Assembly (NCBI RefSeq): GCF_000153125.2
Contig: NZ_CM002299.1
Span: 2,169,075-2,233,074 of the forward strand
Origin: Congregibacter litoralis KT71
GTDB taxonomy: Bacteria > Pseudomonadota > Gammaproteobacteria > Pseudomonadales > Halieaceae
Direction: 5' to 3'
DNA: 64,000 bases
The notes beneath the pieces were generated by a model, which saw only the letters and a list, made by a program, of their open reading frames with translations, did not search any database and was not told where the DNA came from. Positions 9,672 through 31,140 of the stretch are shown here, piece after piece. Each line of letters starts with the position of its first letter. Position 1 is the first letter of the stretch. The position numbers and the translations under genes are program-made.

Positions 9672-10276
9672 CAGTCCGTCACCAGGGGTGGGCAGGCAAT
9701 GAGGTCCTTGACGACGGCCTGCAACGCCCGCTCCACGTCCGCGAGCTCTGCTGAGGCATCAATGATCTGATAGCGGCCACTGCTGCGGCGGGCACGGGAC
9801 AGATAGGACTGTCGCACGCGCTCAAAAAAAGCCAGATCCTCCAGCTCAAAGCGATCAAGAGCTCCCCTGCCCCGGGCCCTGGACAGCCCCAGGTCGGCGG
9901 GAACATCGAGAAGCAAGGTCACATCCGGACGCAGGTCTCCCTGCACGAATTCCTCAAGCAAGGCAACTGGTGCCTCTCCCATGTTTCGGCCCGCGCCCTG
10001 ATAGGCATAGGTGGCATCGGTAAATCGGTCACAGAGCACCCACTGCCCCCGCCGGAGCGCCGGCAGTATGCATTCAGAGAGATGTTGTGCCCGGGCTGCA
10101 AACATCATCAGAAGTTCAGCCAGAGGCGCAATGCCTGCCTCCGTAGGTGCCAGCAGCGTTTCTCGTAGCTGTTCGCCCAGACTTGTGCCGCCCGGCTCGC
10201 GGGTGCAGATGAGGTCCACTCCCGCATCCCGCAGACGCTCCTCAATATAGGACATGGCCGTGCTCTTGCCTGCGCC
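9671..10276 (-). pseudogene. tmk: native thymidylate kinase, 3' part, split by the inserted element
   Basis: Thymidylate kinase phosphorylates dTMP to dTDP and is essential. This piece begins at GGC-GCA-GGC-AAG-AGC (residues GAGKST of the P-loop) and runs to the stop, 199 codons after the GGCGCA core. It keeps TREPGGT, the lid region and DRFTDATYAYQG. The first 14 codons and the start are at 31,141-31,182, on the far side of the element. The reading frame stays open into the element (residues PIF before GAGKST), but that fusion replaces the first P-loop glycine with proline and loses the first beta strand, so a working enzyme is unlikely. Confidence 0.95.
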
Positions 10277-10304
10277 AAATATCGGAACAATTTTTTGTGT
10301 AAAC
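10271..10304. repeat. left end of the element: 6-bp core and 28-bp inverted repeat
   Basis: The core TGCGCC (10271-10276) is shared with the right junction. The 28 bp inside it match the reverse complement of 31107-31134 at 18 positions, in three evenly spaced blocks: TCGGA, TTTTTT and GTAAAC. This block pattern suggests recombinase-binding sites around a crossover region. A gagt x4 microsatellite follows immediately (10305-10320). Confidence 0.88.
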
Positions 10305-10320
10305 GAGTGAGTGAGTGAGT

Positions 10321-11116
10321 AGCTCGGGTCGTTGCTGGCCTCTGCGAACCGAAAAAACACTGGCTTTTCCTGGTATTGGCTATTCTTTCGAGCTGCCGAA
10401 TTCACCCGCTCGCACCGCAAAATGGAAACAAATGCTCAAAAGGTTCAATCACGGCGCTAGAGTAAACCATAACGACGTGATCAGGGGAGAAGAATCCACC
10501 GGTTTTCGAGCCTAAATGTAAACCAGAAACCTTTCCAGATTTCTCCACAGGAACCGCAGCCCTTCCGGGCGGCGGCGGGTCTACCGGGCTGGCTATCTTG
10601 GAATCATAATTTGTGACAACAAGCGTGAGGCATGGAGGCCCCGATCTGGACCTGAAATGGTCTGCCGGCTTCGCTGGCGCTACGCTCACTTGTGCAGCGG
10701 CTGCTGTTGATAATCAGTGTAAATAGCACAAAGCGAGAGCTTAACGCTCTGTTGTGATGTGCTTTTCCCATCGAGGCGTAAGGTTCAGGCTAGGCCAATT
10801 TCTCACGGTACTTGAGTCAAGCCGTACGTTCTCAGAACAAGTGGCAAAACATGCGCGATCAAGGAATAGCACCGATCGACGCTTTCTGCCGATTATTGGA
10901 TTTGCCAGTGCTTACCCGCTAATCCACAAAGACCGCTTTCGCCTATTTTGCGACATTGGGGCAAAATTGCAGCTGTGTCTAGGTGTTGCAACGACCGGTT
11001 GAATCCACAACCCAAAGCGGTACTTTATCGACGCCGTCATCTTACGCAGTCAAACTACGCATTTTTTTGGGATGATTGCTCAATGACGCGGTCTTAATTG
11101 TTGGGAGGGCGAATAC
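10321..11116. other. left-end non-coding region of the element
   Basis: I can support no gene here. A 95-codon minus-strand frame (10402-10689) and an 82-codon plus-strand frame (10754-11002) lack recognisable domains or good ribosome-binding sites. The last 190 bp contain the first copy of the dispersed repeat family found between the cargo genes. A minus-strand promoter for the downstream essential gene holB is expected in this region, but I could not identify one with confidence. Confidence 0.5.
10926..11035 (+). repeat. dispersed repeat, copy 1
   Basis: Contains aaagaccgctttcgccta, ttgcgacattg, ggtgttgcaacgaccgg and a trailing aaagcggtac. These blocks recur in the gaps at 11.94, 13.92, 14.69, 16.01, 17.28, 18.24, 19.31 and 19.96 kb. 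It precedes the 271-aa gene. Confidence 0.6.
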
Positions 11117-11932
11117 ATGAGGGGCGGAATCGTATCTGTTTGTGGTCCAGAGCAAGACGGTAGTCGCGCCGAATGGGTGGTCCAAAGATGTAGCGGCCCC
11201 TTGTTCACGGTTAATCGCTGGGTGCCGTCGGGCTTTGAACGTTATGTTCAGATCTGCCCGCCGGCGTGGCAAGTAAGTACGGACCCGCGCGATAAGAAGT
11301 ACACTCCAGAAGATGGCTCACCTCCTTGGGAGTTCTTCCTGAGGCCTGTACGTTGGTCGAAGGTGGCGGAAGAACGCGGGCACACAATCGACGAATACAC
11401 GCAGTACGGTGATCTGATACCGCACCCAAACTACGAGCAACTGCGCCCGGGTGACTTCTGCGGACCGCTTGAAGAAACGCCTACAGGCGCAATGATCGAT
11501 GCGGTCAGTGACGCTGTATTGTCGTATAGCGGCGAGCATCAGGAGTGCATCGTTGCCGTCTGGCATGGCTACGGAACCGAAGAGATCGACGACCTTCACC
11601 GTCGCAACGCTACGAGAATTAAAGGCATGGGCCAGCAGGAGCATTTTGTGCTGTGCGCGAGTCTCGGCACCGTATTCGAAAAGTGGCGCACTCTGCTACC
11701 GGATGAGCCCGTGTCGGGATCATCAGTATCGTCGCTTTCGCCGCAGGCGATCTGGCCGACTACGGCGGAATGGTTTTTTACGGTACCGTTCGACCACAAC
11801 TCAAGCTTCTTTGCCGGCCCGGCGGCGCTTGCCGATGCTTTGCTCAGCGACGAGCGCATTGAGGCCTACCCGGTGTCACTTGAGGCTGACTTTCGACATG
11901 AGTCGCAGAAGCACTGCTTTCTTCAGCCGTAG
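11117..11932 (+). CDS. conserved-looking protein of unknown function (271 aa)
   Basis: I do not recognise a family. The start ATG is well supported by GGGAGGG nine bases upstream. The protein is soluble, rich in Trp and acidic residues, with no signal peptide or membrane segment. Segments such as AIWPTTAEWFFTVPFDHN and FAGPAALADALLSDERIEAYPV look like a folded domain with a recurring Trp-containing pattern rather than random translation. It stands alone between two copies of the dispersed repeat, like a cassette. Confidence 0.7.
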   Translation: MRGGIVSVCGPEQDGSRAEWVVQRCSGPLFTVNRWVPSGFERYVQICPPAWQVSTDPRDKKYTPEDGSPPWEFFLRPVRWSKVAEERGHTIDEYTQYGDLIPHPNYEQLRPGDFCGPLEETPTGAMIDAVSDAVLSYSGEHQECIVAVWHGYGTEEIDDLHRRNATRIKGMGQQEHFVLCASLGTVFEKWRTLLPDEPVSGSSVSSLSPQAIWPTTAEWFFTVPFDHNSSFFAGPAALADALLSDERIEAYPVSLEADFRHESQKHCFLQP

Positions 11933-11939
11933 TATCCGC

Positions 11940-12060
11940 AGTTGGCCGGAAGCGGTCCTAAAAACACGTTGTTTGACCTTCAACGACCGGCCGCTTTGAG
12001 GTGTTTTGCGTCATTGCCAAACACCGCATACGCCTACGCCTACGCCTACGAGCGGAAGTT
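11940..12060 (+). repeat. dispersed repeat, copy 2
   Basis: Contains aacgaccggccgctttgagg, gtgttttgcgtcattgccaaa and caccgcatacgcctacgcc. The last block includes a cgccta hexamer in tandem. It directly follows the 271-aa gene. Confidence 0.65.
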
Positions 12061-12169
12061 TGGGCTGGCCGGGGCTAAACGGCATCCACCAAACCTTCGC
12101 TGCCGCTAGCAAATTCCTAGCCTCTCGCACCAATTTAGAGACAGCTTTTTTCAAGGCGCTGAGCGAGTC

Positions 12170-12520
12170 TCAAGGCAAGGCCGAATCCTCAGTCTTGTGC
12201 CAAATAGAGGCATCGAGCAACAACTCAGTTTCCTCAATACTTTCCCAAACTTCTTGTTTAAAGCGTTTGTGAATAGCATCGACTTCATGCTCGGACGTTT
12301 TCACCGACGTTCTCGATTGCTCCATACTCACAGCGCGCATGTAGTACACCAAGTAGTCTCCTTCCCTCCTAGACAGCAAGAACACAGATTCAATGACTAC
12401 GGATTCATCGTGCAAAGAGGCCAGAACTTCTTTCATTCTGTCATTCATGGTCTCCGCCCACTTCCGGGCCGTCGGCAGGCTCCCTTGCTTTAGTCGAATA
12501 AGATTGCAGGCGACATCCAT
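12170..12520 (-). CDS. DUF6176 family protein
   Basis: Small soluble protein of about 116 aa. It has the family pattern of an N-terminal NLIRLKQGSLPTARKW, a middle segment with ESVFLLSRREGDYLVYYMRA, and a C-terminal HKRFKQEVWESIEE helix. The function of the family is not established; the fold resembles small ferredoxin-like alpha/beta domains. I prefer ATG 12520 because it aligns with the usual start of the family; an ATG at 12541 would add seven residues. It is a single gene, opposite in strand to its cargo neighbours. Confidence 0.7.
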   Translation of the reverse strand: MDVACNLIRLKQGSLPTARKWAETMNDRMKEVLASLHDESVVIESVFLLSRREGDYLVYYMRAVSMEQSRTSVKTSEHEVDAIHKRFKQEVWESIEETELLLDASIWHKTEDSALP

Positions 12521-12690
12521 AATAATTCTCGGGTGATACATAGTGGCGTGTTATCGGATCGCTTGAGCGGAGACCGGCTCAAACACGTGATTCTCGCTCA
12601 CGTTTTACCTTAACATCAGACATAGGTTGAATCGCCACCAGTTTGCTAGACACCTTTCAGCCATACAAAATGGCTATCAGAGAGGTGTTT

Positions 12691-12969
12691 ATGAGCAACA
12701 AGCGTTACCCCGAAGAATTCAAGAGAGAAGCCGTTCGCCAGATCACGGATCGCGGCTACAGCGTGGCGGACGTGGCCAGTCGGCTGGGCGTGACGACGCA
12801 CAGTCTGTATGCCTGGGTGAAGAAGTACGGGCCGGCTGCTGAGCAACATCGAGTGGAGGCTGATGATCAGGCCGAGATTCGTCGGCTACAAAAAGAGCTT
12901 AAGCGTGTCACGGAGGAGCGTGACATTCTAAAAAAAGCCGCGGCGTACTTCGCGAGCCAATCCGAGTGA
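12691..12969 (+). CDS. IS3-family OrfA (HTH/leucine-zipper protein)
   Basis: 92-aa DNA-binding subunit. The helix-turn-helix lies in YPEEFKREAVRQITDRGYSV and the following VASRLGVTTHSLYAWVKKYG segment. The C-terminal EIRRLQKELKRVTEERDIL heptads form the leucine zipper. ATG 12691 follows AGAGGTG. Near its 3' end an A7G run (12930-12937) precedes orfB in the -1 frame, the usual arrangement for making the OrfAB transposase by programmed frameshifting. Confidence 0.93.
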   Translation: MSNKRYPEEFKREAVRQITDRGYSVADVASRLGVTTHSLYAWVKKYGPAAEQHRVEADDQAEIRRLQKELKRVTEERDILKKAAAYFASQSE

Positions 12970-13838
12970 GGTACGCTTTTATTCAATCCCATCGCCACCA
13001 GTTGCCGGTGCGGCATCTGTGTTCTTTGCTTAACGTTCACCCCAGCGGTTTCTATGCGTGGCGTCGACAGCCGCTATCGGCTCGCGGTTGTGAGGACAAG
13101 CGGCTCTCTGGCCTGATCAAGCAGTTCTGGCTCGAGTCCGGTGCTGTGTATGGCTATCGGAAGATCCATCGTGATTTGCATGAAATAGGCGAGTGTTGCG
13201 GCCCCAACCGTGTCCACCGTCTCATGAAAGACGCTGGAATCAGGGCGCAGGTTGGATATCGCAAGCCACGGCATAAGGTTGGCAAAGCGCATGATGTGAC
13301 GCCTAACGTACTGCAGAGACAGTTTAATCCGGCTGCGCCGAACGAGCGATGGGCGACCGACATCACCCATATTCGGACCCACGAAGGCTGGTTGTACCTG
13401 GCCGTGGTCATCGACTTATTCTCGCGCCGGGTGATTGGCTGGTCGATGCAATCACGGATCACGAGCGATCTGGTTCTAGATGCCTTGTTGATGTCGGTGT
13501 GGCGTCGCAAGCCGGTGAGCAAGGTACTTGTTCATTCGGACCAGGGCAGTCAATACACAAGCTATGACTGGAGCGCGTTTCTACGCGCAAACGGCCTTGA
13601 GGGCAGTATGAGCAGACGCGGCAACTGCCATGACAACGCAGTCGCTGAAAGCTTCTTCCAGCTACTGAAACGCGAGCGCGTGAAGCGCAAGATATATCCG
13701 ACCCGGCAGGATGCCCGGGCCGATATCTTTGACTATATCGAGATGTTCTACAACGTCAGACGCCGGCATGGCTCGAACAGCCTGCTGTCACCTGTAGACT
13801 ACGAACAGCATCACGAAAAACAGCTGGAAAGTGTCTAG
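12966..13838 (+). CDS. IS3-family OrfB transposase (DDE integrase core)
   Basis: 290-aa catalytic part of the transposase. The HTH_21-like region (VYGYRKIHRDL) is followed by an rve domain with the three acidic residues: Asp in RWATDITHI, Asp in VLVHSDQGSQY and Glu in NAVAESFFQLLK. The C-terminus has the common RRRHGSNSLLSPVDYE motif. The GTG start overlaps the orfA stop (GTGA), but the active product is expected to be the OrfAB frameshift fusion. Confidence 0.95.
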   Translation: MRYAFIQSHRHQLPVRHLCSLLNVHPSGFYAWRRQPLSARGCEDKRLSGLIKQFWLESGAVYGYRKIHRDLHEIGECCGPNRVHRLMKDAGIRAQVGYRKPRHKVGKAHDVTPNVLQRQFNPAAPNERWATDITHIRTHEGWLYLAVVIDLFSRRVIGWSMQSRITSDLVLDALLMSVWRRKPVSKVLVHSDQGSQYTSYDWSAFLRANGLEGSMSRRGNCHDNAVAESFFQLLKRERVKRKIYPTRQDARADIFDYIEMFYNVRRRHGSNSLLSPVDYEQHHEKQLESV

Positions 13839-13920
13839 AGAACTGGTGGCGATTCAGGTCTTAGGTTGGCAATATCCCCTCTTGGCCGAGAGTAGTCGTA
13901 AAAACCATCTCATTTCGCTT

Positions 13921-13980
13921 TTAGCGACTGTCTGCATTGAGGTGTTTTGCGACATCTCGAAAGACCGCACCTAGTTCAGG
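13921..13980 (+). repeat. dispersed repeat, copy 3
   Basis: Contains ttgaggtgttttgcgacat and cgaaagaccgcacctagt, the same blocks in the same order as in the other copies. It lies just upstream of the HD-domain gene. Confidence 0.65.
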
Positions 13981-14046
13981 ACATTTGATATAGTATGTTG
14001 AATGACTTTCATCGCCGTTAAAGCGGGTTTTCCCAGGGGAATTCTG

Positions 14047-14625
14047 TTGCAGGAACTCGAAGACATTTTTGGCTTCATCATTGAACTAGATAAGTTGAAA
14101 GGTGTGCTAAGAAAAACTCGACCTATTGGTCTCCAACGGTACGAGAACTCGGCAGAGCACAGCTGGCACGTATGCATGGCCGCGATAATGCTGCGAGAGT
14201 ATGCCAACGAGCCGGTGGACATTGATCGCGTTATCAAAATGCTCCTAATTCACGATATTGGTGAAATTGATGCAGGAGATACCATCGTCTATTCCGCTGA
14301 AACCCCACAAGTCAAAGCCGAGGAAGAAGCCGGCTTGCGGAGAGTTTTAGGGTTACTTTCTGAGGCGGTGGCGCAAGAGTACATTGACCTTTGGCTGGAA
14401 TTCGAGGCTGGTGAATCTGCTGACGCAAGGTATGCCAAGTCTATTGACCGCATACCGCCGCTTCTCCATAACTTGCACGGAGATGGGCTCAGCTGGAAAG
14501 AGAACGCGATCTCTGAGCAAAGAGTGCTGAACCTAAACAGTCGCATCAAAGATGGCAGCAGCGCCGTCTGGGATAGCTTGGAGTCCAAGCTCAAAGACGC
14601 GTTTTCAAAAGGCTTGTTGAGCTAA
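14047..14625 (+). CDS. HD-domain phosphohydrolase (HDDC2/YfbR-like 5'-nucleotidase)
   Basis: Predicted metal-dependent phosphohydrolase; YfbR and HDDC2 relatives remove phosphate from deoxyribonucleoside 5'-monophosphates. Metal ligands are visible: His in ENSAEHSWHV, the paired HD in LLIHDIGEID, and a later Asp in KSIDRIPPLL. The N-terminal LDKLKGVLRKTRP and the GDT after the HD pair are typical of this subfamily. I prefer the TTG at 14047, which follows AGGGGA and matches the family's N-terminus; an ATG at 14002 would add 15 unlikely residues. Nucleotide hydrolases on islands sometimes serve phage defence by dNTP depletion; that role is speculation here. Confidence 0.82.
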   Translation: MQELEDIFGFIIELDKLKGVLRKTRPIGLQRYENSAEHSWHVCMAAIMLREYANEPVDIDRVIKMLLIHDIGEIDAGDTIVYSAETPQVKAEEEAGLRRVLGLLSEAVAQEYIDLWLEFEAGESADARYAKSIDRIPPLLHNLHGDGLSWKENAISEQRVLNLNSRIKDGSSAVWDSLESKLKDAFSKGLLS

Positions 14626-14688
14626 CAGCGAAGGTCGGGATAGGCTTCAAAGGGGACGATAAAAACTACCGAACTCCCTCGAGTTATT

Positions 14689-14820
14689 GGCCGCTTTGAG
14701 ATGTTCTGAGACATTCCCCAGGACCGCTTTCGCCTACTTTGAGTCGTTCGGACCACAACTGCATCTGTGACCGCTGTCGACGCTTCTCAGGCATTAACGC
14801 CCGGGCTCAGGGGCGCGTAA
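14689..14820 (+). repeat. dispersed repeat, copy 4
   Basis: Contains ggccgctttgagatgttctg, gagacattccccaggaccgc and tttcgcctactttgagtcg, then cgcttctcaggcattaacgc. It is one of the most complete copies. It fills most of the 238-bp gap between the HD gene and the convergent AbiTii gene. Confidence 0.65.
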
Positions 14821-14863
14821 CGAGGAACGAGCAGAGCATCCATTGGAGTCCATTGTTATGCAT

Positions 14864-15784
14864 TTATTTGAGACCATAGTATTTCAGTGCGGCCTCTGTT
14901 AAGACTTTTGTGGCAACAGAAATGCCTACGTTCCAAGTCCCCTCTGCTGCTTTTTTCAAATTCGATGTGATCCAATTTTTTGCATTTTCACCAAATGGCT
15001 CCTCTGGACTCGATGGCTCCTCTGAGTGAACAATTTCAGCAAGCTCTTTTGCATCTTCATTCGCAATGCCTGATTCAGTGAGATACTTAATAAAAGACTC
15101 ATTGTCTCGCAACCCAATTTCTACGGAGATTTGCGTATCGCTACTTCCAGCGACGGCAGTTGTTACGTTACCGTAAATTATTTGTTGTGAAATATGTTGA
15201 ACCTTTTCTGGATTCGTTTCGGTATTTTGAGGGGCGCCAAACGAAATATGCGCTGCGGCTGGAATTGCTTTTTCTAATTCAAGAGTTAGCTCAAGAATTC
15301 TTGCTCGAACTGCCTGTTGGATTTCTGCTATTGCGGTGCGAGAAATCGATGAGCTTATGTCGATGCACGAGTAATCTTCGTAGACCTTGCCTTGCAAAAG
15401 TAGAATTAAATTCGACGCATCAATTCCTAATCCGCCTTTATCAGCACTCATGCGGAGTAGTTCTTCAACACCTGCAATGCTTTCCCGTACTTTTTTCTTT
15501 GTCCAGTGTTCCCCGGCGTGCTTCTCGACAAGGTAAGTTGGAATAGGAGCGTTACTAACGCCTGATCCAAATGCGCCAGAAAATGTGCCCTTATAGCTTA
15601 TGCTTACCACTCGGTATGAGGGTACTTCTGCGTCTTCTGGGTATCCTTCAGATTCATGCTTTACCCATTCTTCAAGCAGATCACTGCCCAAACGAGATGC
15701 TAAAAGACGTAACTTCAAGAGCACAGAGCCTAGGTCAGAGCCTTCTTGAACTACAGCTTCTTGTACTTGATGCAGTAAAGCCAT
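14864..15784 (-). CDS. AbiTii-domain abortive infection protein
   Basis: The N-terminal 90 residues match the AbiTii domain: a helical start, then LKLRLLASRLGSDLLEEWVK, ESEGYPEDAEVPSYR and the beta segment after it. AbiTii is named after a lactococcal abortive-infection protein that limits phage growth. The middle (about 180-225) includes VQHISQQIIYGNVTTAVAG, a self-association-like beta segment, and the C-terminus holds an amphipathic, Ala-rich region. The protein is 306 aa with no signal peptide. It is a single gene flanked by dispersed repeats; no toxin or antitoxin partner is visible. The phage-defence role is inferred from the family. Confidence 0.8.
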   Translation of the reverse strand: MALLHQVQEAVVQEGSDLGSVLLKLRLLASRLGSDLLEEWVKHESEGYPEDAEVPSYRVVSISYKGTFSGAFGSGVSNAPIPTYLVEKHAGEHWTKKKVRESIAGVEELLRMSADKGGLGIDASNLILLLQGKVYEDYSCIDISSSISRTAIAEIQQAVRARILELTLELEKAIPAAAHISFGAPQNTETNPEKVQHISQQIIYGNVTTAVAGSSDTQISVEIGLRDNESFIKYLTESGIANEDAKELAEIVHSEEPSSPEEPFGENAKNWITSNLKKAAEGTWNVGISVATKVLTEAALKYYGLK

Positions 15785-16169
15785 TTAGGATCTCTCGCGC
15801 CCTCTTCTATGCATGACAGCGTGCTAACGAGCCAACGCTTGTTATCTTCATATGCGTTAACACCTATTCACCCTCACGCTGAGATACGATAAAAGTACGT
15901 TAATACAGCACGTTACGCAAACCAATTCATGTAGGGCCTGAGTGCGAGGCCCTTCTTCGCCCGCTCCTGGCCGGTTGCGGTCCTTCAGACTACTGCATAA
16001 GCGCCTCTGCGACCGGCAGCTATGAGGTGTTTTGGGACATGGCTAGAGACCGCTTCGACCCTTCTCGGACATCAACGCTGCCAGCAGCGGGCGGCCAACC
16101 CGCGTAGCGGTTTGGTAGTCCGGCGACCGAAGGGAGCGAACTGCCTGACCTGGTTATGTGTGACGGTGT
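15785..16169. other. cargo gap with dispersed repeat, copy 5
   Basis: No gene supported. The segment 16010-16080 holds another copy of the dispersed repeat (tatgaggtgttttgggacat, agagaccgcttcgacccttc and tcggacatcaacgctg). At 15830-15870 there are two closely spaced gctaac/gttaac motifs after the AbiTii start; I could not turn these into a convincing integron attC site. Confidence 0.5.
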
Positions 16170-16355
16170 TCATGGCAGCAATACGATCGCTGGGGCAATT
16201 GCGGTGAAGACCAAGAACAGTTGTCCAAGCGACTTGTTGGTTTGCGTCTCCCACTTCAGCTTCTCTTCCTGCTCAGCCAAATCATGTCGTCGAGCTCGCC
16301 GCACCAGCGACACGCGCTTAGACTCTCGCGGTAGAAAAGCCCATAGCAATCGCAC
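16170..16355 (-). CDS. possible small single-pass membrane protein (61 aa)
   Basis: A short frame starting at GTG 16355, after AAGAGGCGAAG, encodes a basic N-terminal half and a C-terminal hydrophobic stretch (LGQLFLVFTAIAPAIVLLP). The basic-then-hydrophobic layout and the ribosome-binding site make it plausible, but it matches no family I know and could be chance. A 113-codon frame on the opposite strand over the same DNA looks worse (Ser/Arg/Ala-rich). Confidence 0.3.
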   Translation of the reverse strand: MRLLWAFLPRESKRVSLVRRARRHDLAEQEEKLKWETQTNKSLGQLFLVFTAIAPAIVLLP

Positions 16356-16493
16356 CTTCGCCTCTTTGGCTGCATTGCCTCACAAGCAGCATGACCGCTT
16401 AAGCCTCCAAAGATTACGAATGCCTAAGACCCATAACGCCGCCGCTCAGGCGCGAGCCTTTTGCGCGTCATCTGCGGCGGCTTTTTCGGCTGC

Positions 16494-16991
16494 TTAGACG
16501 GGGCCGTGACGGTTCCGAGAGCCGAGAGCAAGAGCCGCAAGGAGAAGCAAGAACACGTAACCAGCAACACTTAACGCAAAGAGCCAGACAAACGGCACAT
16601 TGTCCAGGCCCACGAACGAAGCCGGCGTCCCGCGATATAGGAGCGGCACGAGTAAAAACCAGTAAAGGCCGCCGAACACCACAGGTAAAAGCGCGGCTAT
16701 AGCCGGCCGGAACCACGCGACTGGTAACGCGCCCAAGATTGAAACGGCCGCTACCATGGGGACAGCAAAAGTGTACTGGTCCAGACCCAAATAGTCCTCG
16801 ACCCCCGATCGTGCGAGATATTGCTGGGAGTGCTGATAGTGTAGAGCGTACGGAGCGAGGGACCCGGCAACAGCGCCGAAGTAGAGCCAGTGTCGCCACG
16901 GCATGCGCACCAACCGCAAGAGGTACGCTACCGGAATGCCGAATAATGCACCCGTTACGCAGCCTGACAACGCGAAGTACACCAACACCAT
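16494..16991 (-). CDS. small polytopic membrane protein of unknown function
   Basis: Five hydrophobic segments are visible in about 165 residues, for example FALSGCVTGALFGIPVAYLL, FAVPMVAAVSILGALPVAW, AALLPVVFGGLYWFLLVPLL and FVWLFALSVAGYVFLLLLAA. I choose ATG 16991 because AGGGGAA lies eight bases upstream; a GTG at 17042 is further from any good site. No family recognised. It is a lone cargo gene in the element. Confidence 0.6.
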   Translation of the reverse strand: MVLVYFALSGCVTGALFGIPVAYLLRLVRMPWRHWLYFGAVAGSLAPYALHYQHSQQYLARSGVEDYLGLDQYTFAVPMVAAVSILGALPVAWFRPAIAALLPVVFGGLYWFLLVPLLYRGTPASFVGLDNVPFVWLFALSVAGYVFLLLLAALALGSRNRHGPV

Positions 16992-17042
16992 AAACTCAAT
17001 TCCCCTTCGTCTGAGTTCCTCTACGTCGAACGCTGAGAGCAC

Positions 17043-19110: not shown

Positions 19111-19308
19111 CGGGATTTCAGTGCCCGCTACGCGATGTGGATTATGGTGTGTCAAAGTGAACTGCTCGCGTCCTGTAATTGACGCGTTACACTAACGCAT
19201 TGCGGTTGATCTCAAATACTAACCCGCGACAAACTGATTCGATTTCGCGATAGACGACTGCCGCTGGCCGAAAGCAGCCGTTAACGTCATGGTGATTCTT
19301 CCCCACGC

Positions 19309-19392
19309 TAAAGACCGCCTTGAGGTGTTCTGGGTCATTGCTAAAGACCGCTCCCGCCTAAGAGCCGGCATGGTTCTGTGACCGATGCTAAC
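19309..19392 (+). repeat. dispersed repeat, copy 8
   Basis: Contains ctaaagaccgccttgaggtg, ttctgggtcattgctaaaga and ccgctcccgcctaagagccg. It occupies the middle of the gap between the DUF4386 gene and the exported-protein gene; the rest of that gap shows nothing else. Confidence 0.65.
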
Positions 19393-23448: not shown

Positions 23449-23460
23449 TGGGCAGTCCTG

Positions 23461-24036
23461 TTACAATCCGTTCAATTCCAGGGTACGTTTTGCTGCATTC
23501 GAAATATGTGGATGCGCGTCAGTCAAGGCATTCTGGAGCATCTTGATCGCAGCGTCTTCCGATATCGCTGCTGCTGCTTGCACAGCGGCCCATCTAACGG
23601 AATGGTTTCCGTGCCTGGTGGCAAGCACCCTCAAATTTTCCAGACTTTCATGGTCACCAATTTTGCCCAGCGTCGTTATTGCCAACAGCAACTGGGAGTC
23701 CAGGCTGAGCACTTCATGCGTCTGCAAAGCTTGACGACTTGAGCGAGAAAAAGCCCAGGTCTTTGTGCAAATAGGGGTAGACAACAATTTAAGTACGAGA
23801 CAGCCGGGAGACTGGAAGTCGACAATACGCCTGTTCCCCTCAAATATAATGACCTCTCCCGGCAAGGCCTGCTGCGCTTGCCCCTCTTCCAAAGCAAATG
23901 CTGGATCAAATACTTCAGGATTCCAGGTCTCTGGCAGATCGTAGACGACGTATTCAAGTGGCTTTTCGACCAATACTCGAGCCAGTCCGTTAAATGCCTG
24001 GGACATTATGTTCGATGTCATCTTGTCGAAAAGCAT
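23461..24036 (-). CDS. small HEAT-repeat protein
   Basis: 191 aa. The last 80 residues form two or three HEAT repeats (LLLAITTLGKIGDHESLENL, HSVRWAAVQAAAAISEDAAI and HPHISNAAKRTLELNGL). The N-terminal half contains a beta-rich segment (LPGEVIIFEGNRRIVDFQSP) and may be a short version of the cupin-like part of the next gene. It starts 24 bp after the third recombinase gene and precedes the cupin-like/HEAT gene by 12 bp, linking the trio to the recombinase operon. No catalytic residues are recognisable; it probably acts as an adaptor. Confidence 0.7.
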   Translation of the reverse strand: MLFDKMTSNIMSQAFNGLARVLVEKPLEYVVYDLPETWNPEVFDPAFALEEGQAQQALPGEVIIFEGNRRIVDFQSPGCLVLKLLSTPICTKTWAFSRSSRQALQTHEVLSLDSQLLLAITTLGKIGDHESLENLRVLATRHGNHSVRWAAVQAAAAISEDAAIKMLQNALTDAHPHISNAAKRTLELNGL

Positions 24037-24060
24037 TAACGCTCTTTTCGGCAGGCGTCG

Positions 24061-25353
24061 TCATACTGAAGCCTCCATTTCTTCTATGAACTGCTCAACG
24101 CTCACATCCTGGTCGGTGATGATTTCGTTAACCATTCCCTGGTTCGCCATCACTACCAGACGCGCCTTATCGACATAATATTTGTAGGTGGTTGCCAGGT
24201 CTTGGTGACCCATCTGGCTCTTGAGAACTTCCGCAGCGGCTGCGTACAAAGCATCGGCCGCTTCAGTGAGCAGCTTGTCCTCGAAGAATCGAATAAGGAA
24301 CATGGTCGGCCACCAGTGCCGAGCCTCGTAGAAGTTCACGCGATTGCGAAACTCAGGATGGATTTCCTTTGCCTTCGCTTTGGCGTCAGTGGTCGCATCT
24401 GAAATCATCTTTGGCGTTACAGGCTCTCCAAATCGATTCAGAAACAGGATTGATGGAGGACACTTTTCTCCGTAACGCTGCTCGTACAATTTTGCGCGCT
24501 CGTGGTAATAAGGCTTAATGTAGTGCTCATCCAATGCACGCAGGTCTGCCCTGTTCATCTTTATTTCCCGCGTCTTTCCTCCCTTGCTCTTTTCGACCGT
24601 GTAATCAACGACATTAGATTCGGATTCAGCCATATCGCTATACGGCAGTATGTGCTTGTTAGGGCCATTGCCGATGTATGGAAACCTCACCAGGTCCATC
24701 GGACGCATAGCCGTTCCGAGAGCAAACTTGAACAGCGCCGGATAAACGGGGTCGTGATAAGAGACGATAAGCGCCTTGATCTCCTGATTCGTAATCAGAG
24801 AATGCAGCCGCGCCTGCCTCCATTCCTTGTCAAGCACCTCGATATTTTTCGGATCGATCACTTCCCTGGATTCTTTTCTGACGTAGTTTAAGAACCCTTC
24901 TCTTTTAAAGTTTGGTGACCACGTCTTCGTCTTCACGTTCACGCATGTCACAAAGCCAGCAGCGACAAGCCACTCGAAAAAAATAAGGAGGAGCTTTGCA
25001 TCGCCATAAATTGTCTGAGAAGAAGGTTTGGGTTGATTTTTTAGCAACCTCTCTTCTTGTCGTGCCACCTGCCATCTCTTGATGTCGTTGTTGTCGGCGA
25101 GGGCGTGGTACTGACTAACATCTACCCATCGGTACTTCTCTTCGCCACTGAGAAAGCGGTAGAACATGGCTATCACATTCGAGTATCTATTCGAGGTGTT
25201 CTTCGAGCTGCTAGCATTCTCGTAAAGAAACAGATTGGGGTGACTCAGGAGCACGTTCTTGTCCCCACTCTGTGCAACCAGGAGGTGATGCGAACACTTA
25301 AGTCCGGTATCTACGCTCTCGTAGTCAACAAATCTGCGCTCAATCTCAATCAT
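24061..25353 (-). CDS. tyrosine recombinase, third of the element's set
   Basis: 430-aa phage-integrase-family protein. The catalytic domain shows box I Arg in FALGTAMRPMDLVRF, a lysine-bearing beta hairpin (VEKSKGGKTREIK), box II as NFYEARHWW (Arg kept, the preceding His replaced by an aromatic), GHQDLATTYKYY with the box III His and the nucleophilic Tyr. The N-terminal SAM-like core-binding domain spans about 40-180. The ATG overlaps the stop of the preceding gene (TGATG), giving strict coupling within the recombinase operon. It probably acts with the two larger recombinases in excision and integration. Confidence 0.9.
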   Translation of the reverse strand: MIEIERRFVDYESVDTGLKCSHHLLVAQSGDKNVLLSHPNLFLYENASSSKNTSNRYSNVIAMFYRFLSGEEKYRWVDVSQYHALADNNDIKRWQVARQEERLLKNQPKPSSQTIYGDAKLLLIFFEWLVAAGFVTCVNVKTKTWSPNFKREGFLNYVRKESREVIDPKNIEVLDKEWRQARLHSLITNQEIKALIVSYHDPVYPALFKFALGTAMRPMDLVRFPYIGNGPNKHILPYSDMAESESNVVDYTVEKSKGGKTREIKMNRADLRALDEHYIKPYYHERAKLYEQRYGEKCPPSILFLNRFGEPVTPKMISDATTDAKAKAKEIHPEFRNRVNFYEARHWWPTMFLIRFFEDKLLTEAADALYAAAAEVLKSQMGHQDLATTYKYYVDKARLVVMANQGMVNEIITDQDVSVEQFIEEMEASV

Positions 25354-26342
25354 CAATCGCCCTGCCTCACCTCGTAACTGCATACGCGCTGAAACCCATC
25401 ATTAAGCGAGGGAGTTGCGAGGTGGTCAGCAGCTTCTTTCTCTACGTCGGGAACATCTCTGAAAGAGAATTTCCTTTGGGCCTTTGTGACTGTCTCGCTA
25501 GCGCAATGCGGGATCCAGATTTCTTTGGTGGCCTTCACGTATATGTTTTTGGCGAACAACCTCAATTCTGTTCGGGAGAAGATCGGAAGTCGTACGATGA
25601 TGACCTGACCTTTGCTTGAGGTTCGGTAGGAGGACGCGAACTCGTCAAAGCTCGCAAGAAAACGATCTACATACAGAACAACATGAGCGTCACCGACTGA
25701 GGCTAGCTTGTTGACCTTCTTGAGCACGCCAGCCAGCGCCCGGTCTTTCTCATCCTCTAGGACATCCCGATCTCCGGTTTTCAGGTAGTTTCGGTAGATT
25801 GGATTAAGATCAACATCAATTATCGTGACCTCCTGCCCATCGACATTATGTGCCCCGCCCTCCTGAGTTAACTTGGCGACCATCGCTATGGCGTCATTCA
25901 GCTTTCCTTCACACTCCTTTTTGTCCTTAATGAGCTTGTCATTGTGCAGCACCTGCTTCTGGAGTCGCTTCCTGGTCTCATCTGCTTCCATAAGAGAGAT
26001 GTCGCTATTCATCAGCGATGTGATGTACGAATCCTTGATTTTCTCGACCTCCTTTTCTTGCTCTATATGGAGTCGAGCAACCTCCTTCTCAAGCTCACGT
26101 ATGCGCTCTTGGCTCTTTGACAGTAGCCCCTGAACATCATCGGCCTGGTCTGTGAGTAACTCTTCGATGGGGCGAGCACCCTTAACGTAAGGGGTAAGGT
26201 GCTTGTAGTACTTGTTGTAAGCCTGTCGAGAAATCCCCGCCCAGCTCGACACGACCTGTATGGTCAGCTTTCCTTCTCCACCGCCCAGATGGTGTTCAGC
26301 TATCAGTCGAACCAGTCGCTTCTCTGTGTCTTTCGCGCTCAT
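25353..26342 (-). CDS. HTH / coiled-coil auxiliary DNA-binding protein of the recombinase operon
   Basis: 329 aa. The first 60 residues contain a helix-turn-helix-like region (LTIQVVSSWAGISRQAYNKYY), resembling the N-terminal DNA-binding region of KfrA- and TnpC-type proteins. Residues about 75-170 are strongly coiled coil (LLSKSQERIRELEKEVARLH, QEKEVEKIKDSYI, RKRLQKQVLHNDKLIKDKKE). The C-terminal part is a mixed alpha/beta domain of unknown type. ATG 26342 overlaps the upstream stop (ATGA). Tn554 has a small coiled-coil TnpC beside its two recombinases, so a role in aligning or orienting the ends is a reasonable inference. Confidence 0.75.
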   Translation of the reverse strand: MSAKDTEKRLVRLIAEHHLGGGEGKLTIQVVSSWAGISRQAYNKYYKHLTPYVKGARPIEELLTDQADDVQGLLSKSQERIRELEKEVARLHIEQEKEVEKIKDSYITSLMNSDISLMEADETRKRLQKQVLHNDKLIKDKKECEGKLNDAIAMVAKLTQEGGAHNVDGQEVTIIDVDLNPIYRNYLKTGDRDVLEDEKDRALAGVLKKVNKLASVGDAHVVLYVDRFLASFDEFASSYRTSSKGQVIIVRLPIFSRTELRLFAKNIYVKATKEIWIPHCASETVTKAQRKFSFRDVPDVEKEAADHLATPSLNDGFQRVCSYEVRQGD

Positions 26343-28390
26343 TGCACAACATCCCCTGCAACAACTGACGCCTTCCCGAAACATTTGGTATTTCCGAGGT
26401 TGGAAAGATGGACCTCGTTGATCTTGATCTGGCGCTCAATCTCACGCCGGGAGAGTCGGGATAGCATCCCCGGCCCACCATCGAGTAGCCCCCGGTAGAA
26501 GCTGATGTTTTTCTCCAACTCGCCTTTTGCATCACTGAGAACGACCGCATTCTTGCAGTCCAGTTTGCAGTTCGAGGTGTCTGGCTGGATTGGGCCGTCT
26601 GACAAACACTTCCCCTCTAAGCAAGGAGGCAATTGGTCTGCCGAATACTCATCGTTGCTTACGCAATAGACGCCGACTGAGGCCCGCTTAATGAACACAG
26701 GCTCACCGGCCTCAATAAGGTATGCGATGTAATTGTAGATGGTCATGCGAAGCAGCTTGCCCTTAAACAGCAATGGCTTTTCTGCTGATTTGGCTGCTAT
26801 CCGCTCTGCCGCGCTCCCCGAGTACCCGCCGCCTTGTACTGCGCTAACGAGATTGATGAAATCTTGTGCGTAGTGGGTTTCTATCGCCTCTGCAACAGAA
26901 GAAATAATGTAGGGATTTCGAGCGATATAGCGAAGGGTCATCTTGTAGCTGCGATGACCGAACAGCATACGGATAACGTCAATGTTCCGTTCTGAACGAT
27001 TGATCAGCATCTCCGCTATGGTTTTCCTGAATCTGTGCGGATGAACGCCATCAATACCTGTTACTTCCCCAATCCGTTTCATCGACTTTTGGATTGAACG
27101 AGCCATTATCGATGCCACTTTCCCCCCCTTGGCGCAATAAAAAACCTTTCGGGTTCGCATGTGGACTTCGACCTCACGAAGTTGTTTGAACTGTGTGATG
27201 ATCTCACCTAGAAAGTCCGGCAAGGGGATCGCATCAGGTTCCCCAAAATAATTGGGGTCATTGCTGGTTTTGAATCTCACGACGTTAACTGTGTATTCGC
27301 CATCACCGCTCTGGGTGATGTCGTCGAAATCCAGTTCTGCCAACTCGCTAGATCGGAGTCCCGTGATGAGCGAGAAAAGGACCAGAATCCCCTGCATTAC
27401 GTTATCTAGGGCCACCCTGTAGTTGTTCTTCCAAGTGTAAGCGATGTAGTCGTATTCGAGCTCCCTACCGCTGCTGCTGGTGATCTTGGCCTTAGTTGGT
27501 CGAGTTTCATATCCGCAGACAGTCACTCCTTTCACCTTCTTGCCGAGCATTTCTTCAATCTCGAGGTCTGGCTTTGAGCGAACAAGGAAACCTACCTTGT
27601 GGACACTAAGGCTCTCAACGATAAAGTCTCGTATCTCCATCAGTGTTGGCATTGCCTCCTCGGTCCAGAAGAGTGCGTACTCAACCATGCTGGACAATTC
27701 GCCTTCAGTGTACGGTTTCCAGCCCTGTGTTTCGGCGGCAACTTTTTCCTGGACAGATTTTTGTCGCGCTTTGGTGACCACCTTATTCAGCGGAATATCC
27801 AGACGTAATTCTCTTGAGATTAACTTCTGCGCTGACAGTGAAATCCAGAAGGCGAGGATGAAATACAGAAATGAGTAATGCCTGTAGATGCCTTCATCAC
27901 GAGCCATGTCCAGCGCCCTGTTAATCATGGGCACTGTGATCGTGCGAATGCTCTCTGGCGTTGCATCTAGTCCGTTGGGGCTCAACAGATACCAGTCAAG
28001 GTAATCACAGGCATAAGAGTAGGTCCTTGTTGATCGATAGCTCCTGACTTTGCCGTAGGGGTGAAACTCAGGAATCAAGTGATAGATCAACTGCTTGTAA
28101 AGCTCATTGCCCCCAGCAAGTCTGCTGGTAAATGTGACGATCACTTTCTCGCCGGAGCGAGTCGCGTAAAGCCAGCGATTATCATTGTAGCTCGACTGAT
28201 CTGATGTGCGGAAAGACAACGTCGGATCATCTTCGATTTTTGCTAGGAGCGACCCGCTGTCACCATCGAGGTCACCATGCGAAAAATCGAGGAGTTCATG
28301 GAATTCTGCTGACGCTGCTTCCTTGGCTTCTTCCTCCAAAGGCCTGTTAATGGCCTGAGCGAGGTCTTCATTGTCCAATTGGTTGCTCAT
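26339..28390 (-). CDS. large tyrosine recombinase with complete catalytic residues
   Basis: 683 aa, much longer than ordinary integrases. Catalytic residues are visible: Arg in SLITGLRSSELAELDF, His and Arg in GVHPHRFRKTIAEML, His in MLFGHRSYKMTLRY and the nucleophilic Tyr at the end of that motif. A long N-terminal DNA-binding region precedes it. The C-terminus has four Cys in two pairs (PPCLEGKC and NCKLDC), probably a zinc-binding module, as also seen in the neighbouring 666-aa protein. It overlaps both neighbours by 4 bp (ATGA). This is the best candidate for the main strand-exchange enzyme. Confidence 0.92.
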   Translation of the reverse strand: MSNQLDNEDLAQAINRPLEEEAKEAASAEFHELLDFSHGDLDGDSGSLLAKIEDDPTLSFRTSDQSSYNDNRWLYATRSGEKVIVTFTSRLAGGNELYKQLIYHLIPEFHPYGKVRSYRSTRTYSYACDYLDWYLLSPNGLDATPESIRTITVPMINRALDMARDEGIYRHYSFLYFILAFWISLSAQKLISRELRLDIPLNKVVTKARQKSVQEKVAAETQGWKPYTEGELSSMVEYALFWTEEAMPTLMEIRDFIVESLSVHKVGFLVRSKPDLEIEEMLGKKVKGVTVCGYETRPTKAKITSSSGRELEYDYIAYTWKNNYRVALDNVMQGILVLFSLITGLRSSELAELDFDDITQSGDGEYTVNVVRFKTSNDPNYFGEPDAIPLPDFLGEIITQFKQLREVEVHMRTRKVFYCAKGGKVASIMARSIQKSMKRIGEVTGIDGVHPHRFRKTIAEMLINRSERNIDVIRMLFGHRSYKMTLRYIARNPYIISSVAEAIETHYAQDFINLVSAVQGGGYSGSAAERIAAKSAEKPLLFKGKLLRMTIYNYIAYLIEAGEPVFIKRASVGVYCVSNDEYSADQLPPCLEGKCLSDGPIQPDTSNCKLDCKNAVVLSDAKGELEKNISFYRGLLDGGPGMLSRLSRREIERQIKINEVHLSNLGNTKCFGKASVVAGDVVQ

Positions 28391-30387
28391 TCGTCGTCCT
28401 CAAACAGTACGGACAGGATAGACATATCGGAAGGCAGCAGGCTCGGGTTCTTCCTGAGATAGCGTGCAGCATTTTTCAAGGCTTCCTCATCCCCCCAAAC
28501 GTCAAAGATGTATTCGATGATCGACAACTCATCAGCGTGAAGAGGGTCCAACATGGCAGCCCCGATTTCTTCGGCCTCCCTTTGGAGGGATGCTTGTCGA
28601 TCCATTAGATATGGCAGCGAATCCTCGAATATGCAGACCTGACTACAGAAGAGACACTTCCGCAGTTCGCTGCATTTCTTTCCGATAGGGATTTGTGTGG
28701 AGCTGCCAGGCCAGTCTGGCTTGTATGAATCGGAGCACGCCCAAAGAGAGCGATCTTGCCCAGGTAATGAAAACACTCTCAGTGATGCAAAATTGATAGA
28801 GGTGTCGCCTCGCTTGCCGATGAGTCCTTTGAACTTATTCTGGCGAATTTTACTCATCAGCAAGGTCAGTTCTTTTCTGAGCCGCTCGCGGCGCTGTTGC
28901 CTCGCCATACCAGAATCGTCGTAATGAATGTCCGTACTCTCAATATCCTTATGTCCTTGCGTCAGTGCGACAACACTTAAAGGTGTGCCTCGCTTATCAC
29001 GAACAAAGCGAACCCAGGTCGGGCGAAGGCGCAACGCAATATCCTTGGCAGTCTCCAGTCTGTTTCCGTTCTCGCAGACCTCGTACTTTTTAAAGAATGC
29101 CTTTACCCCTGAGCTCCAGACGTCCTTGACCGTAGCGGACGTGTAGCGCCCTGGACGGGACAGGTTCCCCTTCTGATTCTTTTTCAGGTCATTCGACATT
29201 TGCCTTGTCCCTCTTATGCAGGAAAAAAGGGGATTGATCGTGCAGTACTCCCGGCCAATATGGTCTATGGGTAGGCCTAACATCGGCTCCGAGAGCTTCT
29301 TCGCTAACTGAATCAAGTTGTATGCGGAATACCTGTCTTCCTTGGAGCTTGCTGCATAGAAGGCCTTGGGGTCCTTATAGGGCTTACCCCTTCCTTGTGA
29401 CTTATTCTTCTCGGAGAAAATCAAGGCATTCTTGTCGTTGAGAATTCCAGCAAGAGCGTGCTCGTAATTGCCACTATCGAGCGCGGACACCGTTTCCTTG
29501 TTCCACCCTGTCTGCAAGCCAATGAAGAGTGCAATAGCCACCTGATCCATGGCGGTCGGGAAATAACGTGCAAATACGTCATCTAACGGCGTTACGGCAT
29601 CCGCGTAGTCAGTCGGCCTGACTGCATGAATCAAGTAGCGCCGATAAATGAACTCACAGGGGTTAGACAACGCATCAGTACTTCTGGCGCTTCTGGCCGA
29701 ATCGTAAGCGTGCTGGAAGTCATCGAAAGGTACTGCAAGAGGATGCCCTTCAAGCAAGAGTGTCTTTAGAGCGCGGTCATCATCCGGCACCCACCTACTC
29801 ACCTTGCCGTCGAAAGGAAGTAACTCGCTGCGGGGGTAAGGCGTCACCGCGCCAAGTTTCTCTCTGTACGTTAATTTTTCATACAGAGAATCAATATGCT
29901 GCTTTAGTGCAGTCGAGAGCTGGACAAAGCAAGCCTCTGTAAGCGGCTCAGCTGGCTTGCCACTCCTACTATCCACCGCTGGCAGAAACAGGAGGGGCAT
30001 GCCTTCGTCGTAATCCTTTGCGACAGAAGTCAATGCTCCGCGAAGGCGTGATGCTAAGCCCTGCGGCGCTTTGACCTTCTTGGCGTATTGATCAAAACCG
30101 TAAAATACTTCTGATGTTATTTTATCGAGGGAATTCAGGTGTAATGCGTCTGGGACTCCAGACTCGTACACGCATATAAAATCTAAAAATACATTGATCG
30201 CTTTGCGAATCTCATAGCCCTTCGAGTACGAGCGATCTTGGACAAATCTCACGAAGGCGTAGTGTAGACCTGCACTGAAATTACAATCATAAGAAAAACG
30301 AGGATGCTCAAGATAGTTGCAGGTCACCGACCTTCCATCGCCGCTAAGCACCGTCGCAACGCCTTGAACAACCTTAAGATACTTCAT
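28387..30387 (-). CDS. large, catalytically degenerate tyrosine-recombinase-like protein
   Basis: 666 aa with the layout of its downstream neighbour. The integrase fold is recognisable from FIGLQTGWNKETVSAL at box I (the usual Arg is missing), RLRPTWVRFVRDKRGTPL at box II and LTQGHKDIESTDIHY with box III His and a Tyr. The loss of the box I Arg suggests a structural or reduced-activity subunit. A C-terminal Cys cluster (KKCSELRKCLFCSQVC) is probably a zinc site. It begins 11 bp after the element's tmk and overlaps the 683-aa recombinase, so tmk and the recombinases share a transcript. Confidence 0.85.
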   Translation of the reverse strand: MKYLKVVQGVATVLSGDGRSVTCNYLEHPRFSYDCNFSAGLHYAFVRFVQDRSYSKGYEIRKAINVFLDFICVYESGVPDALHLNSLDKITSEVFYGFDQYAKKVKAPQGLASRLRGALTSVAKDYDEGMPLLFLPAVDSRSGKPAEPLTEACFVQLSTALKQHIDSLYEKLTYREKLGAVTPYPRSELLPFDGKVSRWVPDDDRALKTLLLEGHPLAVPFDDFQHAYDSARSARSTDALSNPCEFIYRRYLIHAVRPTDYADAVTPLDDVFARYFPTAMDQVAIALFIGLQTGWNKETVSALDSGNYEHALAGILNDKNALIFSEKNKSQGRGKPYKDPKAFYAASSKEDRYSAYNLIQLAKKLSEPMLGLPIDHIGREYCTINPLFSCIRGTRQMSNDLKKNQKGNLSRPGRYTSATVKDVWSSGVKAFFKKYEVCENGNRLETAKDIALRLRPTWVRFVRDKRGTPLSVVALTQGHKDIESTDIHYDDSGMARQQRRERLRKELTLLMSKIRQNKFKGLIGKRGDTSINFASLRVFSLPGQDRSLWACSDSYKPDWPGSSTQIPIGKKCSELRKCLFCSQVCIFEDSLPYLMDRQASLQREAEEIGAAMLDPLHADELSIIEYIFDVWGDEEALKNAARYLRKNPSLLPSDMSILSVLFEDDE

Positions 30388-30398
30388 GCGTTGACCCG

Positions 30399-31028
30399 TT
30401 ACGCTTCAATAACTTGGTCAACGACGCTCAACACCTCACTTATTACATTATCAAGTGACTGTGAGGCATCAATCACAACAAAGTTATCTGGGCTTGCCTT
30501 AGCCTGCCCCAGGTAGCCATCACGGGCTTTGTGAAGGAAGTCCAGCTTCTCCTTCTCAAGCCTATCCAGGTCATCGCCACGGGAGCCAACACGCACCAGA
30601 CCTGCCTCTGGGTCCAGATCAAGAATGATCGTCATATCAGGCTTGAGGCCATCAACGGCGATTTCATTCAGCGTGGTAATCAACTCCAGGGGCAGCCCCC
30701 TTGCGTAGTGCTGAAAACTTACGGTTGCTGAGTCAAAGCGATCAGAAACAACAACCTTGCCTGCCTCAACGGCAGGCATGATCTTCTCGCGAACGTGTTG
30801 CGCTCGCGCAGCGGCGAACAACATTAGTTCAGTCACGTCAGCCATCTCACCGGCCTCCGGTGACAAGAGAATCTCTCTTATTTTTTCTCCGATAGGAGTG
30901 CCGCCAGGCTCGCGGGTAAACACGGTCTCACGGTTCACATGCTGGAGATGATCACGAATCGCTTCAATGACCGTAGTTTTTCCAGCTCCATTACTCCCAT
31001 CGACGACGATCATGCGGCCTTTTTTCAT
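30399..31028 (-). CDS. tmk: element-encoded thymidylate kinase (replacement copy)
   Basis: Complete 209-aa dTMP kinase: P-loop MIVVDGSNGAGKTT, TREPGGTPIGEKIRE with the Arg/Glu of the nucleoside site, the ARAQHVREKI lid helix, DRFDSATVSFQHYARG and a C-terminal VIDASQSLDNV. It differs greatly from the host remnant, which has EGGEGAGKST and DRFTDATYAYQG, so it is not a duplication. ATG 31028 has GGAGA eight bases upstream; starts further up lack one. It is the first gene inside the right end, under its own promoter. It presumably supplies the essential activity lost when the element splits the host gene. Confidence 0.96.
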   Translation of the reverse strand: MKKGRMIVVDGSNGAGKTTVIEAIRDHLQHVNRETVFTREPGGTPIGEKIREILLSPEAGEMADVTELMLFAAARAQHVREKIMPAVEAGKVVVSDRFDSATVSFQHYARGLPLELITTLNEIAVDGLKPDMTIILDLDPEAGLVRVGSRGDDLDRLEKEKLDFLHKARDGYLGQAKASPDNFVVIDASQSLDNVISEVLSVVDQVIEA

Positions 31029-31075
31029 TCGTCTTCTCCACATCAATTCCAGTGCTTTACCGCTGCATTGTTTAC

Positions 31076-31103
31076 AATATACCATAATCCGATATATTTA
31101 CAA
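31076..31103 (-). promoter_or_regulatory. promoter of the element's tmk-recombinase operon
   Basis: On the minus strand TTGTAA is followed after 16 bp by TATATT, about 45 bp upstream of the element tmk start. It lies within 60 bp of the right terminus, among extra copies of the terminal blocks (GTTTAC at 31070-31075, ATCCGAT at 31087-31093). Recombinase binding to the end could therefore repress this promoter; that regulation is inferred. Confidence 0.7.
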
Positions 31104-31106
31104 ACT

Positions 31107-31140
31107 GTTTACGAAAAAAAAGAATCCGAAACAATGCGCC
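31107..31140. repeat. right end of the element: 28-bp inverted repeat and 6-bp core
   Basis: The inverted repeat at 31107-31134 is the partner of 10277-10304, with matching blocks GTTTAC, A6 and TCCGA (reverse complements of the left-end blocks). TGCGCC at 31135-31140 repeats the left core and belongs to the tmk P-loop codons (GGC-GCA on the coding strand). Confidence 0.88.

Follow-up and report, generated by a model that had tools for sequence, protein, structure and literature searches.

A genomic island that breaks the thymidylate kinase gene tmk and supplies its activity is already known, having been published in 2023, with its rescue kinase, for Pseudomonas putida KT2440 and others (PMC10653934). 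As described there, the KT2440 island is prophage-like and splits tmk at 294 bp beside holB; its T4-like dNMPK, unrelated to thymidylate kinase (TMPK), is essential and adjoins four conserved genes (two for tyrosine recombinases, one of unknown activity and one TetR/AcrR-like), and the rebuilding of tmk by stitching its halves failed (PMC10653934). Two further families have been described, the strand-biased circularizing integrative elements (SE) with the gene order intA-tfp-intB-srap (PMC10214605) and GInt, genomic islands with ginABCD in the order ginA-ginB-ginC-ginD and the cargo behind ginD (PMC5385486); SE elements and some GInts have no detectable empty site (PMC10214605, PMC5385486). 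Here, we analysed a stretch of 64,000 nucleotides from Congregibacter litoralis KT71 (NZ_CM002299.1, positions 2,169,075 to 2,233,074; hereafter the window), in which tmk is interrupted by a 20.9-kb insert. The insert is very probably a site-specific integrative element of a four-gene tyrosine-recombinase family, which has its core in the Gly-Ala codons of the TMPK P-loop and carries its own TMPK replacing the split host tmk. By their published description, the tmk-splitting islands of KT2440 and others are its closest described relatives. What is new is that tmk holds a second target, that the rescue enzyme is a true TMPK whose P-loop is recoded and which has a clade of its own, and that target and rescue enzyme are regularly paired.

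A shared insertion site in the P-loop codons of host tmk

The host locus has the order mltG-tmk-holB, all on the minus strand, and the sequence places the cut inside the P-loop codons of tmk:

8688-9671, minus strand: holB, directly after the tmk 3' fragment; named by synteny with genus mates
9671..10276, minus strand: host tmk 3' fragment including the left core, open, no stop; Thymidylate_kin 4.9e-44, groups with genus-mate tmk
10271..10276: left 6-bp core GGCGCA, distal junction, from sequence
10277..31134: inserted element, 20,858 bp between cores, from comparison with the unbroken mltG-tmk-holB of three same-genus genomes
31135..31140: right 6-bp core GGCGCA, kinase-side junction, from sequence
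31135..31182, minus strand: host tmk 5' fragment, 16 codons, including the right core; from sequence, contiguous with mltG
31179-32213, minus strand: mltG, YceG match

The 5' part of tmk runs from GTG at 31182 to GCA at 31135 and encodes VNQRGLFITLEGGEGA. Its 16 codons finish with GAG GGC GCA, and the rest of the gene resumes past the second GGCGCA (10276-10271) in the 3' part, which spans 10276 to 9671. The cut lies after 42 bp, followed by the 6-bp core, and the KT2440-type cut after 294 bp was not found here. Because GGCGCA stands at both 31135-31140 and 10271-10276, one copy must go on joining the halves, and 31182..31135 joined to 10270..9671 gives a 215-codon tmk with EGGEGAGKST. The original prediction of a 20.9-kb element inside these codons was confirmed as a site-specific insertion; the restored motif and gene length that it gave were obtained with one core dropped, whereas joining literally from 10276 doubles GA. 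The inserted DNA has a G+C content of 51% against 58% for the remaining window.

All three other genomes of the genus showed the empty locus, a contiguous mltG-tmk-holB with a single unbroken tmk (213-215 residues aligned), and the split tmk is 86% identical to that of one of them (G012). Three Thymidylate_kin matches were found in the own genome, namely the element copy, the remnant and a weak third (31.9 bits), whose ORF adjoins a FolK-like ORF and appears deoxynucleoside kinase-like (both labels by eye); weak counterparts of it occur in the three genus mates, whose tmk is intact. The window remnant gave a dN of 0.096 and a saturated dS of 2.9 with no decay, which indicates strong past purifying selection, and the remnants are open in all four genomes with this type of insertion; by their sequence, such open, undecayed remnants suggest a recent insertion.

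The other three of these genomes are Colwellia (G140), G587 and G790. Their tmk is broken at the same pair of P-loop codons, and an element-type tmk begins 74-114 bp further inside, according to which start is taken. G587 is Aliiglaciecola-like, its homologue of the 666-aa element protein described below being identical to P0025 (Aliiglaciecola sp. LCG003). The search for tmk genes split at the P-loop with a complete tmk beside recombinases was thus answered in three genomes, and the same junction in them rules out an assembly error. The ends carry a conserved motif at a fixed distance from the core:

10299..10304, plus strand: GTAAAC, exactly 22 bp inside the left core, then GAGT repeats at 10305-10320; from sequence
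31070..31075, minus strand: second GTAAAC, 37 bp further in than the next one listed at this end, beside a -10-like box; present at 4/4 P-loop-type kinase-side ends
31107..31112, minus strand: GTAAAC, exactly 22 bp inside the right core; same offset in 8/8 P-loop-type ends
31076..31103, minus strand: promoter-like site before the element tmk, TTGTAA-16-TATATT; consensus match

The last is one of three promoter-like sites in 301 bases, where 0.7 were expected, by consensus match only. The kinase-side/distal cores are GGCGCA/GGCGCA in the window, GGCGCT/GGCGCT in G140, GGCGCA/GGGGCT in G587 and GGCGCA/GGGGCA in G790; they are equal in the former two and unequal in the latter two. In SE elements, the 6-bp stretch beside the ends is exchanged on one side.

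The element kinase and its recombination genes

The recombination operon of four genes is headed by the kinase, in the order kinase-tfp-intB-srap-intA:

30399..31028, minus strand: element tmk, 209 aa, P-loop DGSNGAGKT, first gene inside the right end; TIGR00041 186 bits, element clade 100/98
28387..30387, minus strand: tfp-like protein, 666 aa, predicted tyrosine-recombinase fold, no Pfam match
26339..28390, minus strand: large tyrosine recombinase (intB-like), 683 aa; Phage_integrase 1e-16
25353..26384, minus strand: srap-like protein, 343 aa, by position and homology across the family; no Pfam match
24061..25383, minus strand: tyrosine recombinase (intA-like), 440 aa; Phage_integrase 2.4e-6

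The full, divergent tmk predicted as the first gene inside the right end is a complete kinase that scores 186 bits with TIGR00041, the equivalog model for dTMP kinase, above its cut-off of 83.25, and it starts likely at ATG 31028, with GGAG upstream, rather than at the longer ORF start at 31085. The own genome gave no dNMPK match, the rescue gene being a PF02223 TMPK. In a kinase tree of 97 rows, with bootstrap values yet to stabilise and long branches on several phage and native rows, 48 element-type TMPKs formed one side of a branch with support 100/98; six of these were read in context (window, G140, G587, G790, G821, G1418) and 42 were database proteins chosen from 120 listed homologues. 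The joined window tmk grouped with that of G012 (98/93), and the remnants of G140, G587 and G790 grouped with native tmk of G670 and L032. The phylogeny of element copy and remnant came out as the original prediction would have it: the element kinase is of foreign origin, a xenologous replacement. Its clade is also marked by a recoded P-loop, DGxNGAGK against EGxEGAGK in hosts. All 112 P-loops readable among the 120 listed homologues (own included; eight were off-pattern) have N before the second G, as 109 DG[SG]NGAGK, 2 EGSNGAGK and 1 DGGNGSGK, whereas of 44 native or remnant rows, the window's not counted, 28 are readable and none has N at that place.

Among the matches listed for 369 genomes of the class, the top ones were the own copy and G1418 (61%), and the next reached ≤48%. 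In G1418, the element-type tmk lies between mltG and two genes preceding holB, the 19.5 kb read there contain neither a native tmk fragment nor recombination genes, and by this arrangement it is a probable domesticated end state of the element tmk.

The 666-aa protein was assigned a probable recombinase fold by VIA-align; R455, H479 and Y489 are invariant in 30 rows. The third recombinase of GInts lacks the first catalytic arginine; in the 666-aa protein, the box I arginine appears to be missing, as judged by eye from the consensus. Its profile gave a chance-level match only against solved structures by sequence, and Foldseek gave none under E 0.001. The Gamma-mobile-trio families were tried as well, and no NCBIfam model of GmtX, GmtY or GmtZ matched the element proteins; the papers listed on these families did not concern elements of this kind in tmk. 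A scan of genome contigs, not confined to one group, with 30 relatives of the 666-aa protein yielded 21 loci, of which 19 have gammaproteobacterial names, one is Paraburkholderia and one is a short contig filed under Streptomyces. The prediction of a site present in nearly every bacterium is supported in part: the P-loop itself is conserved, but the recombinase loci are, by name, mostly gammaproteobacterial. In overlapping searches, matches were found in 4 of 390 genomes of the own order (own included), 12 of 395 of the Colwellia family and 6 of 394 of its order, many of them weak (weak distant matches: G423, G472, G552, G596, G656, G839, G845, G893 and G1271), and none of 139 other genomes of the own family matched the protein. 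Two database protein searches gave four pairs of a 666-aa relative and an element-type TMPK (P0002/P0038, P0003/P0047, P0005/P0112 and P0019/P0083) with longest contigs of equal size, which suggests that the members of each pair lie together. A 52-row tree of the 666-aa protein, with two long-branched rows, placed the three P-loop members read in context and 24 database proteins of unknown context in one group (99/95).

Relatives with other targets and variable cargo

A second type of insertion, named here the DR type, splits tmk near profile position 90/91 (DRF-T/DS/TYAYQ) and was found in 10 of 18 genomes searched, with the exceptions that G155 yielded the 3' half only and that the 5'-half match of G142 stops at 75; two further loci are L022 and L023. 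At the Pseudomonas locus L042, 98 codons precede the core (by eye), which equals the 294 bp given for KT2440. The DR type carries dNMPK in 10/10 genomes examined and also at L022 and L023, and the P-loop type has TMPK with dNMPK absent in 4/4. One mixed case, G821, has a DR-type split, no dNMPK and an element-type TMPK beside the tmk 5' half, with recombination genes beside the 3' half on another contig; this TMPK and the recombination genes would belong to one element. In the seven genomes with the element elsewhere, tmk is intact and there is no full-length dNMPK (weak partial matches in G154 and G157), and no kinase was found in the stretches read of the seven members at other sites; in G176 and G670, too, tmk is unbroken and the stretch with the element lacks a kinase. 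Across the genomes examined, target and rescue enzyme go together.

Eleven DR-type loci were compared on their kinase side. At 22 bp from the core, eight have the hexamer GTTTAC (one of them, L014, completed from the same genome's locus) and three have a variant that differs by one base. On the opposite side, compared in nine such loci, GTAAAC stands 22 bp from the core in four; in the remaining five the distance is 21 bp when codons define the core. A tetranucleotide repeat (GAGT/CTCA or CACC) was also seen beside the distal GTAAAC in the window (10305-10320), L050 (Colwellia), L095 (G587) and L040 (G143), and occurs in both target types. The four other-site members in which the motif pair was found (L025, L027, L028 and L031) all have TTAGTT beside the predicted core, and a cation antiporter gene (label by eye) is apparently interrupted by L027 and L028; no target was located for L016, L021 and L030. 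Nine plasmid records hold relatives at ~23% identity. One distant relative of the recombination genes, in plasmid pPUV-7 of Pseudomonas aeruginosa (L135, NZ_MT732185.1), has a similar order by annotation and sits behind a phosphoadenosine phosphosulfate reductase-family gene, with no kinase in the stretch read.

The remainder of the window element is cargo, assigned by domain search except where another source is given:

20888..24036, minus strand: HEAT-repeat protein, 302-aa unknown and MutS domain V ATPase
14864..15784, minus strand: AbiTii-like gene; AbiTii 6.8e-48 Pfam, 5.1e-38 PADLOC
14002..14625, plus strand: HD-domain protein; HD_3 1.6e-45
12643..13838, plus strand: insertion sequence, two ORFs (HTH_Tnp_1, rve)

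The ATPase at 20888-24036 has MutS domain V without the rest of MutS and follows the HEAT-repeat protein and the 302-aa unknown, and the three possibly form one unit. Five window cargo proteins used as queries had no match in the Colwellia or G587 elements, the Colwellia cargo having other genes; its L084 (2205-3386 and 6836-7984) contains a Shedu SduA match and a CAP12/Pycsar TIR effector match, with a RecD2-like helicase near. Given AbiTii in the window and the Colwellia cargo, defence-type cargo may be common.

Proposed mechanism and comparison with known systems

In the most likely course of events, a circular form would integrate through the four recombination proteins into the P-loop codons, with the recombinases crossing over in the 6-bp core that forms the Gly-Ala codons (EGxE/GA/GKS). 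Integration would sever the host tmk after codon 16, but the element tmk, which heads the recombination operon and runs the same way as the host gene, would come to lie ~106 bp downstream of the junction and would thus be readable from the host mltG-tmk promoter, its own promoter or both. The element kinase would take over at once and the host would then depend on the island for TMPK; we infer the enzyme's function in the cell, its expression, self-immunity and host dependence from these arrangements. With its recoded P-loop, the element enzyme probably no longer offers the target sequence. Over the 12 bp left of the core, six positions of the element tmk depart from the host site, against one to three in genus mates, and by this comparison the copy is probably not itself a target. 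It is plausible that the island would act as an addiction-like maintenance device. The predicted lethality of loss by deletion has been shown for the KT2440 analogue (PMC10653934) and may hold for the window element. The predicted safety of precise excision lacks support because the stitching of tmk failed in KT2440, as that report describes (PMC10653934).

Several points weigh against this account. The P-loop-type loci readable in context number four, and the two ends in G790, like those in G821, presumably bound one element but are on different contigs. The window cores are identical, so an element-borne core is not distinguishable from the host core. That the remnant is undecayed might also reflect a function it has kept, for instance in the translation of holB. 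In the right arm, the element tmk differs at four positions against one to four in genus mates, and self-immunity therefore rests on the left arm. In the tree of the 666-aa protein, the 12 DR-type rows are not one clade and are interleaved with other-site members, with four changes; thus, either there were several gains or losses of the DR target, or some rows are misplaced in the tree.

The kinase might instead be ordinary cargo that landed by chance in a gene of the same function, with no selected pairing of target and rescue. The cargo does vary between elements, as the unmatched window queries indicate, but the kinase is kept at the element end in 4/4 P-loop-type genomes, in 10/10 DR-type genomes examined and at L022 and L023, the seven other-site members have none in the stretches read, G821 pairs its DR-type split with a TMPK at the other end, and a tmk insertion without a kinase was not seen; we regard chance as improbable. 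A decayed prophage with a phage-type kinase is less probable still. The KT2440 island was described as prophage-like, and TMPKs in phage records are distantly related to the element enzyme (~38-43% identity among 20 listed of 294). Against it, the two recombinases were the only ones of 10 element proteins scanned to match PHROGs families of named function, no virion or packaging gene was among the 10, and the search of viral contigs confirmed nothing related to the tfp protein, which speaks against a virus origin. A reading in which the intact copy is the native tmk and the split one a paralogue that the cell can spare is next to impossible, since, even though the intact copy alone can encode a full enzyme, synteny at the conserved mltG-holB locus, the identity to the G012 tmk and the separate clade of the intact copy reject it.

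Beyond the integrative element with its own TMPK, a broader design can be proposed tentatively, to which we give rather less than even credence. One recombinase family would have come repeatedly to a 'hostage' design, aiming at catalytic-motif codons of an essential enzyme, a site that the host could hardly mutate away. Each target would be paired with a rescue enzyme that escapes targeting, dNMPK because it is unrelated and TMPK because its P-loop is recoded (E to N). This would give selfish maintenance without a toxin and a route for essential-gene replacement. As the rescue gene heads the recombination operon, the host would have to keep the operon transcribed, and after decay of the element the foreign enzyme could remain the sole TMPK, as perhaps in G1418.

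Like the KT2440 island, as known from its publication, the window element lies inside tmk between mltG and holB and supplies a rescue kinase that adjoins four conserved genes, two of them for tyrosine recombinases; in 12 loci of the KT2440 kind, relatives of the window recombination genes follow one another as they do in the window, with some loci truncated where a contig stops. The two differ in that the published KT2440 cut matches the DR-type core and goes with dNMPK, whereas the window has a P-loop cut and a PF02223 TMPK, and in that the window element lies in the direction of tmk, whereas the DR-type elements read in context here are opposite to it. With SE, by description, it shares four core genes, two tyrosine recombinases, a recombinase-like Tfp and a 6-bp junction stretch that may differ between ends, but the order in the window is tfp-intB-srap-intA with the kinase in front instead of intA-tfp-intB-srap (PMC10214605). 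With GInt it shares four recombination genes, three of them recombinase-like, site specificity, variable cargo and a 6-nt staggered exchange, but the ginABCD order at the 5' end with cargo behind ginD was not found in the window, and the Results of PMC5385486 mention no rescue gene such as the window element has. The open-access literature (bioRxiv not included) gave nothing on P-loop insertion in tmk, on TMPK as a rescue enzyme or on tmk islands linked to SE or GInt.

SXT in prfC and islands in tRNA genes rebuild the end of the gene entered. The window element resembles these in having a conserved, important target gene and in repairing the damage, but they restore the end of the same gene, whereas it replaces the whole gene with a foreign one. 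With the present loci, the single puzzling case of KT2440 becomes a comparative system with two targets in one essential gene and two unrelated rescue enzymes. The system also includes one mixed case, members of the family that sit elsewhere and lack a rescue gene, and what is probably a domesticated end state. It makes testable an essential gene as an integrase landing site, a rescue gene as a maintenance device and the replacement of an essential enzyme by horizontal transfer.

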